The notes below the pieces were generated by a model. That model was not told the origin of the DNA. It did no database searches and saw nothing but the letters and a program-made list of their open reading frames with translations. Made by a program: the position numbers and the translations under genes. This document shows, piece by piece, positions 9,037-11,831 of a stretch of DNA of 64,000 nucleotides (the stretch's first letter is position 1; each line of letters opens with the position of its first letter). The stretch is from Sedimenticola sp. (GTDB lineage Bacteria; Pseudomonadota; Gammaproteobacteria; Chromatiales; Chromatiaceae): contig PKUO01000028.1 of the NCBI GenBank assembly GCA_002869585.1, positions 62,001-126,000 of the forward strand, given 5' to 3'.

Positions 9037-9909
9037 ATGCAAAAGCCCTATATCAGCCCCTACCTGGTTTCAACGGAAGGTGACTTCGACCTGAAAAAAA
9101 GCAGCACTCAACCGCCAGACGACGCCCCAGGCAAAAAGCAGTGCGGCAAACAACTAAAAAAGAACATCGAGAGACTCGACGAACTGCAACACCGCCTGTA
9201 CGCCGAAGACAGCCGGTCATTGCTGCTGATCTTTCAGGCCATGGACGCTGCAGGAAAAGACAGCACCATACGCGCCGTCATGAGCGGCATAAATCCCGCC
9301 GGTTGCCAGGTCTACTCATTCAAACAGCCCTCCAAGGAGGAACTGGACCACGACTTTCTCTGGCGCTCCGCCCGTTCACTCCCGGAAAGGGGCAGAATCG
9401 GCATCTTCAACCGCAGCTACTACGAAGAGACCTTGGTGGTCAGAGTTCATCCGGAATACCTGTCTGGCCAGAGAATCGCCATACCCGCCAATCTCGAAAA
9501 GCTCTGGAAACAGCGCTTTCGCGCCATCAATGAGAACGAGAGACATCTGGCAGAGAATGGCACGGTCATCCTGAAATTCTGGCTGAATGTCTCCAAAGAT
9601 GAACAGCGCAACCGGTTTATATCCCGTCTGGATGAACCTGAAAAGAACTGGAAATTTTCCGCCGCTGATGTTGAAGAGCGCAATCACTGGAACAGCTACA
9701 TGAATGCCTACCAGGAGACGTTGAAAAATACATCCAAACCCTGGGCACCCTGGTATGCCATCCCTGCTGACAACAAACCCTACATGCGCTGGCAGGTGGC
9801 AAAGATCATCCGAAAAACCCTTGAGCAGATGGCGCCGGAATATCCCAAAGTGGATGAAAAGGAAACAGAAAGATTCAGTGAAATGCGCAGACTATTGGAG
9901 AACAAATAA
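9037..9909 (+). CDS. polyphosphate kinase 2 family protein
   Basis: About 290 residues. PPK2 enzymes move phosphate between polyphosphate and nucleoside mono- or diphosphates. Walker A reads MDAAGKDST near residue 75 and Walker B region IGIFNRSYYEE near 125; the lid segment with conserved Arg follows. Single-domain length and these motifs fit the short PPK2 class. ATG 9037 is preferred because GGAAGG sits about 8 bases upstream, whereas it abuts the alternative ATG at 9028. Substrate preference (AMP or ADP, class I or III) cannot be settled by eye. Confidence 0.88.
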   Translation: MQKPYISPYLVSTEGDFDLKKSSTQPPDDAPGKKQCGKQLKKNIERLDELQHRLYAEDSRSLLLIFQAMDAAGKDSTIRAVMSGINPAGCQVYSFKQPSKEELDHDFLWRSARSLPERGRIGIFNRSYYEETLVVRVHPEYLSGQRIAIPANLEKLWKQRFRAINENERHLAENGTVILKFWLNVSKDEQRNRFISRLDEPEKNWKFSAADVEERNHWNSYMNAYQETLKNTSKPWAPWYAIPADNKPYMRWQVAKIIRKTLEQMAPEYPKVDEKETERFSEMRRLLENK

Positions 9910-9972
9910 GAATAAAGGACCGGGGTCACACATACCTGCGACTCCGAACCTGCCTGAACTCCACAGGCTGTG

Positions 9973-9988
9973 TTTGGCGTCCCCTAGG
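9973..9988. repeat. distal att-like repeat, copy of tRNA-Glu 3' end
   Basis: TTTGGCGTCCCCTAGG is identical to 11754-11769. The match stops exactly at both sides (9972 G versus 11753 A; 9989 A versus 11770 G). It lies 64 bases after the polyphosphate kinase stop and outside any gene. Confidence 0.75.
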
Positions 9989-9995
9989 ACGGCTT

Positions 9996-10901
9996 TTAAC
10001 GTACCCAATTGCCCGTTGCTCTCCACTGAGCGTCGAAGCGTCCACTTGCACTTAAAGCAGAGATGACCGGCTGCAAGAAGGCACCGATACCGGTAATGAC
10101 CTCTGCAAAATCAGCCGGTACATGCTCCTGCCCCAGCCGCTTGCGAAAAGCGGTCCATTGTCTGGTGTTCTGATCGATGAATATTTCGCTAAAGGCGGTA
10201 ACCGTCTCAGGTAGCACGGTACCCCGCTTATCCAGGGTAAGCCGAATTGCCTCGGCCAGATCAGCACCAACAAACTCGAATTGACAGGAGAGCAACCAGA
10301 TATCGTAGAAGTCTTTCATCCGGCTATTCAGTTCTCCCAGCCTGATCATCGCCTCCAACTTCTCGGCAATGGCGCTCTCCCGGCTATAGCAGAGCATTCT
10401 CGGGGCCGGAAAATCCAACAAGGTCGGCAGCTCGGTGAGAGTAGGTCCGGGATGGACTACATCACCGAAACCGACATCAATCTGCATCGACAAACGGGCT
10501 CCGTCCAAAGTACCGGCAAAGCGTACACGTACGCCCTCGTAGTCGGCATCCTCCTTGATCACCTCTCCTTTGATGGTGGATGGGTCGAATACCAGCCCAT
10601 CGTCCGACTCCACTGCGAGGATATCGACCACTTGCCTGCAGATATTGTCGACTTCATTGTTGGTCATCCCCAGCATGTCGATATCCATGGTGGGCCGGGT
10701 ATCCGGTGACTGCCAGGCCCTGAGCATCAGCGCACCCTTTAGGATGTAGCGCTCTGCATGGGGAGATTGAGTCAGACGATAGAGAAAACGCTCCATGGCG
10801 TAATACTGGAGCAACTCGGCAAACGGCCGTCTGTCCATAGCGGCCCGATTCTTCAACCGCTGCCTCACAGAAGCCCCAATATTTTTTTTATTCTCACTCA
10901 C
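9996..10901 (-). CDS. abiEii: AbiEii-type nucleotidyltransferase toxin
   Basis: A 301-residue protein of the AbiEii/AbiGii family, the toxin of type IV toxin-antitoxin and phage-abortive systems; known members are nucleotidyltransferases acting on tRNA. The NTase core shows YILKGALML followed by TRPTMDIDMLG, giving the acidic pair Asp73 and Asp75, and a later IDVGFGD strand that can supply the third carboxylate. The motif IAEKLEAMIRLGELNSRMKDFYD is the family's conserved lysine/aspartate helix (about residues 190-215). The start overlaps the antitoxin stop by 4 bases (ATGA). It lies in the tRNA-Glu islet. Confidence 0.92.
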   Translation of the reverse strand: MSENKKNIGASVRQRLKNRAAMDRRPFAELLQYYAMERFLYRLTQSPHAERYILKGALMLRAWQSPDTRPTMDIDMLGMTNNEVDNICRQVVDILAVESDDGLVFDPSTIKGEVIKEDADYEGVRVRFAGTLDGARLSMQIDVGFGDVVHPGPTLTELPTLLDFPAPRMLCYSRESAIAEKLEAMIRLGELNSRMKDFYDIWLLSCQFEFVGADLAEAIRLTLDKRGTVLPETVTAFSEIFIDQNTRQWTAFRKRLGQEHVPADFAEVITGIGAFLQPVISALSASGRFDAQWRATGNWVR

Positions 10902-11506
10902 AGACTGACCTCCAGATAGGCCCGCATGACCTTTTCCACCCGGCAGACACGTGCATACTTGATCAGCGCATCCCTGTTCACCTGCCTTTGGCTGCGGTAG
11001 AGCTTCAGCGCCTCCAGCACCACATCCATGCCTAGCTTATTCCGATACTTGAAACAGTCCGCCAGTGTCTTCTCAGGGCTATAGACCTGCACTGTGGTGC
11101 CATCGATCAGGTGTCGCTCAATGCCTGCTTGAAAAGCATCTTCCGAGAACTTGTAGGCTTGCACCGGTGGATAATCAAGAGACGGCATACGGGCGTTGCG
11201 AGACACCGCGACGGAGACGGCATGTGGAATCTGTGTAGTCATCTCATGGAACGAGAGCGCCGAAATGAGACAGACTACGGACTTGGGGAAGCGCAGACTA
11301 ACCGTCACCAGATCGGGCTGACTGATTGGCGGCAGTTCCACCAATCGATATATCCCCCTGGAAACCCGCTCAAGAACGCCGCTGTCTCGCATCTTATAGA
11401 GGGTGTAGCGAGAGATCCCGTAACGGAGTGCCTCGCTCATGCGCAGCTGTCCTCCGTGCTCGCGGAAGATCATCTCGGGCGATGTTTTGTACCCATGAAC
11501 AGACAT
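10898..11506 (-). CDS. abiEi: AbiEi-type antitoxin and autorepressor
   Basis: A 202-residue protein with an N-terminal winged helix-turn-helix (about residues 15-60, including LRYGISRYTLYKMRDSGVL and RGIYRL) and the AbiEi C-terminal region (SPEKTLADCFKYRNKLG, about 145-165). AbiEi proteins neutralise AbiEii and repress their own operon through inverted repeats. Here a 16-bp inverted repeat covers the start codon at 11506, matching that model. The gene leads the two-gene leftward operon. Confidence 0.92.
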   Translation of the reverse strand: MSVHGYKTSPEMIFREHGGQLRMSEALRYGISRYTLYKMRDSGVLERVSRGIYRLVELPPISQPDLVTVSLRFPKSVVCLISALSFHEMTTQIPHAVSVAVSRNARMPSLDYPPVQAYKFSEDAFQAGIERHLIDGTTVQVYSPEKTLADCFKYRNKLGMDVVLEALKLYRSQRQVNRDALIKYARVCRVEKVMRAYLEVSL

Positions 11507-11544
11507 TTTGTCACCATATATTATCTAGTGGTGACAATATGTCT
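11501..11544 (-). promoter_or_regulatory. AbiE operator: 16-bp inverted repeat over the abiEi start
   Basis: The left arm 11501-11516 and right arm 11529-11544 are reverse complements at 15 of 16 positions, with core TTGTCACCA/TGGTGACAA, around a 12-base AT-rich centre. The arm includes the abiEi ATG. A possible promoter on the minus strand (TTGATT, 17 bases, TATTGT) would place its -10 box in the right arm, so binding would block transcription. Confidence 0.75.
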
Positions 11545-11722
11545 GCTTTAGGTAGAAATCAAGCAGATTTGAGAAAACACCTTCTGTAAAGGTGCCCTTT
11601 CCTCACATGACAGACTTGAGGCTTCAAGGATAATCTGGAAGTGGGTGATCCGGAGCGCAACAAAGCCATCCTACGCAGCTTAATCGAAACAACGACACTG
11701 GATGGAGATACTTTGGAAATAA

Positions 11723-11750
11723 ACCCCAGTTATAAGAATGTAACTGGGGT
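11723..11750 (-). terminator. intrinsic terminator of tRNA-Glu
   Basis: ACCCCAGTTA (11723-11732) pairs perfectly with TAACTGGGGT (11741-11750) around 8 bases; on the minus strand the stem is followed by TTTATTT. It begins 6 bases beyond the tRNA 3' end. Confidence 0.7.
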
Positions 11751-11753
11751 ACA

Positions 11754-11769
11754 TTTGGCGTCCCCTAGG
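11754..11769. repeat. tRNA-proximal att-like repeat
   Basis: Identical to 9973-9988; comprises the terminal T-arm/acceptor bases and CCA of tRNA-Glu plus two adjacent bases. It marks the likely integration point of the AbiE islet. Confidence 0.75.
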
Positions 11770-11831
11770 GGAGTCGAACCCCTGTTACCGCCGTGAAAGG
11801 GCGGTGTCCTAGGCCTCTAGACGAAGGGGAC
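11756..11831 (-). tRNA. tRNA-Glu (anticodon TTC)
   Basis: The minus strand folds into a 76-base cloverleaf: acceptor GTCCCCT/AGGGGAC, D arm with CTAGAGGCCTAGG, anticodon stem CCGCC/GGCGG around CTTTCAC (anticodon at 11795-11797), T arm with GGTTCGACTCC, and encoded CCA. It remains intact although it abuts the integrated islet. Confidence 0.97.

Follow-up and report, generated by a model that had tools for sequence, protein, structure and literature searches.

The window, a 64,000-nucleotide stretch of a Sedimenticola genome, contains a short unit in which a two-gene AbiE operon lies between an intact tRNA-Glu gene and a second, displaced copy of the 3' end of that tRNA (Table 1). The abiEi gene is upstream of abiEii and overlaps it by 4 bp, and both frames are open. 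AbiEii scores 151 bits against PF08843 (cut-off 22.5), has a solved homologue in chain B of 9hlo, and conserves the T-x-D-I-D and K-D-F-Y-D motifs. AbiEi scores 50.8 bits against PF13338 (cut-off 25) and has solved homologues in 6y8q and chain A of 9hlo. Judged by its domains and gene order, this pair is an AbiE type IV toxin-antitoxin (TA) system, sharing with described AbiE type IV systems and MenAT the abiEi-abiEii order, both Pfam domains and the operator palindrome (PMC7725324, PMC10435456). Because the MenT relatives of the toxin extend tRNA acceptor stems (PMC10435456) and the Serratia AbiE toxin affects tRNA levels (PMC7725324), the AbiEii cargo, by analogy, probably acts on tRNAs.

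Table 1. Features of the AbiE unit and its borders, in positions of the window.
Feature	Position	Strand	Basis or remark
Distal copy of tRNA-Glu 3' end (att-type repeat)	9973..9988		Repeat search
Conserved inner distal end	9989..10006		Includes abiEii stop codon
abiEii, 301 aa, nucleotidyltransferase toxin of AbiEii family	9996..10901	-	PF08843 E 6.7e-44; PADLOC AbiEii
abiEi, 202 aa, winged-helix antitoxin/repressor	10898..11506	-	PF13338 E 1.8e-13; PADLOC
17-bp inverted repeat over abiEi start, probable AbiEi operator	11500..11545		Inverted-repeat search
Filler between operator and terminator	11546..11716		Does not align with G016; contains most of the "recombinase-like" ORF
Terminator hairpin, tRNA-proximal end of unit	11723..11750	-	Only in G000 (this genome) and G016, among 210 genomes
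tRNA-proximal repeat copy (3' end of tRNA-Glu)	11754..11769		Repeat search
tRNA-Glu(ttc), intact, probable integration target	11756..11831	-	tRNA detection

Borders and interior of the unit

The borders are two copies of TTTGGCGTCCCCTAGG, a 16-bp perfect direct repeat with a spacing of 1781 bp, and the tRNA-proximal copy includes the last 14 nt of the tRNA, with its CCA. The original prediction of a perfect repeat of the tRNA end around a TA pair is confirmed, as both copies are present with intact abiEi and abiEii between them. No further copy of the repeat was found in the window with up to three mismatches allowed, and the distal copy is the sole displaced tRNA-Glu end in this genome. The tRNA-Glu gene itself stands alone, beside a PilZ-DUF1631-GGDEF-EAL gene. 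Among 210 family genomes, the 15-mer TGGCGTCCCCTAGGH, which marks the displaced copy, occurs in two, both times beside AbiE; the same pattern read backwards, which served as a control, occurs about a dozen times in this set, always in other genomes.

The only genes between the repeats are abiEi and abiEii, with no integration or transfer genes, and a Pfam search found no integrase on the contig of this unit or on that of its counterpart in G016, described below. A recombinase-like scrap (about 11618-11740) had also been proposed inside the unit, and we found no support for this claim: neither the ORF at 11641-11796 nor its extension matched anything in Pfam, PHROGs, PDB or plasmids, the best PDB match being a designed protein at E 0.13. 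The best match among 96 family genomes had E = 0.2, and we dropped 11618-11740 as a candidate recombinase remnant. The equivalent place in G016 holds an unrelated remnant of an ISL3 transposase.

A second copy of the unit and its empty site

The genome of Candidatus Sedimenticola endophacoides (G016) contains the same AbiE pair, and the same tRNA-Glu end stands on either side of it. There the insertion lies in a tRNA-Ala/tRNA-Glu operon beside glnS (a gene named from its sequence); the tRNA-Ala/tRNA-Glu pair of the window genome is located elsewhere and is unoccupied. Common to the inner ends of both units are the terminator behind the tRNA and a distal GGGTANGTTAAAAGC. Read outward on the minus strand, the inner distal end is GGGTACGTTAAAAGCCGT followed by the repeat in the window, and GGGTAGGTTAAAAGCTT followed by the repeat in G016. 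Nucleotide identity between the two genomes is 87.9% over 1523 bp of AbiE as opposed to 73.1% in the glnS region, and on this comparison the AbiE unit has most likely moved laterally. The G016 copy is degraded, with a stop codon interrupting the abiEii frame, an insertion of about 0.5 kb near the operator, and the ISL3 remnant. Part of this insertion (L005:3020-3545) recurs at another place on the contig as an exact 300-bp copy. About 177 bp that follow the abiEii stop in G016 are missing from the unit in the window.

The original prediction held that an empty site in close relatives should carry a single repeat copy. For G016 this is what we found. A strong terminator, the native one of this tRNA, stands just outside its distal repeat, and in its unoccupied relatives the native tRNA terminator lies directly behind the tRNA. 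When the G016 flanks are joined at the repeat, they match one such relative, G004, through the junction (query 660-976), where tRNA-Glu leads straight into a native-type terminator. For the window the expectation stood in part. In G001, which belongs to the same genus, the right flank is the same and the tRNA-Glu has a single repeat copy with a native terminator, but an AraC-type gene takes the place of PPK2 on the left. On the strand of the tRNA, no clear native terminator was seen in the outer left flank of the window unit, and the neighbouring PPK2 gene is not conserved, so for this copy the empty site is half supported. A second tRNA-Glu of G001 (L034:10405-10516) is followed by a terminator shaped like that of the window unit, and the contig ends there.

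AbiE pairs at displaced tRNA ends in other bacteria

AbiEi homologues also led us to Chlorobiaceae loci in which repeats of 22-43 bp reproduce the end of tRNA-Val(GAC), with internal copies between stacked units. The cassettes are about 2-4 kb long, have a common distal arm and a proximal terminator-plus-arm, and carry several distinct AbiEi/AbiEii pairs that exceed the PF08843 cut-off. Tandem tRNA-Val(GAC) cassettes with shared arms and varied cargo, in one case a Fic-domain gene, are visible at L163, L166, L167, L171, L176, L178, L180 and L184. Across 81 family genomes, a displaced tRNA-Val end lies 98-334 bp downstream of 23 of the 150 AbiEii genes listed, always on the same strand and with 0.07 expected, a count from a query that was itself taken from an AbiE cassette and so favours such cassettes.

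A Pfam integrase search of the array genomes G240, G259, G261, G282, G288 and G293 found none inside the AbiE cassettes, and reading the ORF lists of the small cassettes in G231-G234 likewise turned up no integrase. In G261 a short integrase fragment follows one displaced tRNA end. The same search placed related tyrosine integrases directly behind tRNA-Val in two other genomes of the family, G264 and G242 (ORFs of 393 and 386 aa; L181:6806-7984 and L185:6896-8053), and we regard these as candidate helpers for the integrase-less cassettes.

The association extends to other lineages. Around 56 AbiEi loci we counted 19 orphan tRNA T-arms outside tRNA genes, about half of them in members of the Chlorobiaceae arrays, versus 4.0 in shuffles. 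A class-wide search of Gammaproteobacteria then compared 29 AbiEii loci, with 1.5-kb flanks, with 30 PemK loci drawn from the same genomes. Orphan tRNA 3' ends, whose tRNA identities were assigned by reading the sequence, occur at five AbiEii loci (L208, L211, L213, L217 and L227), and shuffled AbiEii loci yielded a mean of 1.06 orphan fragments. Two more cases have repeats on both sides of the pair: at L207 AbiE has 24 bp of a tRNA-Arg-like half repeated on either side, and at L218, in a third family, an AbiE pair lies between an intact tRNA-Ala/tRNA-Glu operon and a 17-bp repeat of the tRNA-Glu end. The AbiEii of the L218 pair shows 40% identity to that of the window. In all, displaced tRNA ends mark 7/29 AbiEii loci and 0/30 PemK loci (Fisher p = 0.0046, relatedness ignored), although the like-for-like contrast is 5/29 versus 0/30 because L207 and L218 came from a repeat scan of the AbiEii set alone. 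Beyond the Sedimenticola and Chlorobiaceae cases the orientation of AbiE varies, and L218 is reversed.

Long direct repeats unrelated to tRNA around other AbiE loci were left out of the count because they have mixed causes. The repeats at L087:6803-7022 and 9106-9305 are matches to group II intron ends, and those at L060:7258-7648 and 9616-10006 are a 391-bp, 99.5% identical duplication of part of a neighbouring gene, with no tRNA; both candidates were rejected. The tRNA-Lys at L058 has no second copy on the contig examined. At L069:6062-6871 and L111:1624-2468, small gene pairs that by eye resemble an acetyltransferase TA system adjoin displaced tRNA ends in the neighbourhood of AbiE.

Origin and mobility of the unit

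We propose that positions 9973-11769 are probably a non-autonomous, att-flanked AbiE type IV TA cassette that was integrated site-specifically by a recombinase probably supplied in trans. The original prediction of a tRNA-integrated unit of minimal size agrees with what we observe, namely tRNA-end copies at both borders, no integrase and a length of 1.8 kb. The copy in another genus and at another locus in G016, the arrangement at L218 and the Chlorobiaceae arrays support the idea that this is a repeatedly mobile kind of unit. Hypothetically, a circular form carrying abiEi-abiEii, the operator and the terminator would recombine within the last 16 bp of tRNA-Glu(UUC). After integration the tRNA would remain intact with the terminator of the element now acting behind it, and the far border would be marked by the displaced 16-bp end. 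As the Chlorobiaceae tRNA-Val arrays suggest, a larger element sharing the attachment site may supply the tyrosine recombinase. The integrated AbiE pair would promote its own retention, since AbiEi would repress the operon while AbiEii, probably a tRNA nucleotidyltransferase, would become harmful if the cassette is lost; AbiEii perhaps acts on phage infection as well. We found no helper recombinase for tRNA-Glu, and a search of viral contigs for a helper with the same ends matched neither the distal arm nor the terminator.

The main alternative is a decayed island, a classical CIME, in which a larger element with its own integrase shrank to AbiE and its att sites and nothing was mobilised in trans. 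Decay of IMEs and ICEs to CIMEs is well documented (PMC5704250), and the stretch between operator and terminator, the usual place of an integrase, differs between the two copies, being filler in the window and an ISL3 remnant plus insertion in G016. Given this difference in the tRNA-proximal filler, each copy may have lost, independently, an ancestral integrase once located there. However, no integrase remnant was detected, the two copies, at different loci in two genera, have in common only AbiE and both inner ends, and the integrase-less cassettes of Chlorobiaceae recur over several genomes and array positions. Mobilisation in trans fits these observations best, and we consider decay in place unlikely, if still a serious contender. 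We give far less weight to the idea that the unit spread without a site-specific recombinase, through homologous recombination of tRNA-Glu genes or their flanks: tRNA-Glu genes are nearly identical across genomes and repeat arrays can recombine, but in three cases the repeats comprise no more than 16-17 bp of the tRNA 3' end, the flanks differ, and the Chlorobiaceae cassette arms are conserved in the manner of attachment sites. Finally, 16 bp is short, yet a chance repeat next to an ordinary chromosomal AbiE pair is barely credible when TGGCGTCCCCTAGGH is expected within a given 2.5-kb stretch at about 7e-6 per genome, both genomes with the displaced copy have it at AbiE, and the terminator is confined to the same two of 210 genomes.

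A non-autonomous cassette of this type resembles several known systems without coinciding with any of them. Like a CIME, it has attL and attR flanks and no integration or transfer genes (PMC5704250, PMC3146451); it differs in its length of 1.8 kb and its single TA pair. No remnant of ICE or IME ancestry was found in the unit, whose filler is unlike that of G016, and unlike an IME or ICE it has no integrase of its own. In Dehalococcoides, an integration module is missing from 15 ssrA islands, which lie in tandem with others (PMC3146451). The additive flexible genomic islands of Alteromonas (PMC4119200) and Methylophilaceae (PMC10872708) likewise use a conserved tRNA as a repeated target for cassettes and have tRNA 3'-end repeats as borders, but they carry metabolic or resistance cargo of up to 110 kb, whereas the units described here are single small AbiE pairs. 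The presence of several cassettes at one tRNA, a trait of additive islands, is absent from the window, with its one unit, and present in the Chlorobiaceae tRNA-Val arrays. Integrons also hold cassette arrays, often with TA pairs (PMC4119200); the likeness is limited to the Chlorobiaceae arrays and is one of analogy, as our unit has no integrase between its repeats and its site is a tRNA 3' end.

We found no papers linking AbiE to displaced tRNA ends in the open-access library searched. Our results suggest that AbiE pairs are often carried, as very small passengers, by recombination systems that target tRNA genes. More tentatively, and with rather more doubt than confidence, we speculate that AbiE pairs may be a widespread class of non-autonomous, tRNA-anchored TA cassettes, single units of about 2-4 kb that have terminal arms and are bordered by tRNA 3' ends, which would be mobilised in trans by the tRNA-specific integrases of neighbouring islands and stack at a tRNA gene in an integron-like manner, their toxin targeting tRNA acceptor ends, the very part on which the cassette lands. 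A search rule follows, in that displaced tRNA 3' ends can reveal small mobile units missed by island finders that require an integrase. The proposal also makes the testable prediction that a tRNA-specific integrase supplied in trans would excise the cassette, and the Chlorobiaceae tRNA-Val arrays combine cassettes and candidate helpers in one system. It offers a concrete answer to how small TA or defence pairs that lack a recombinase may spread, namely by being carried at tRNA attachment sites as minimal passengers.
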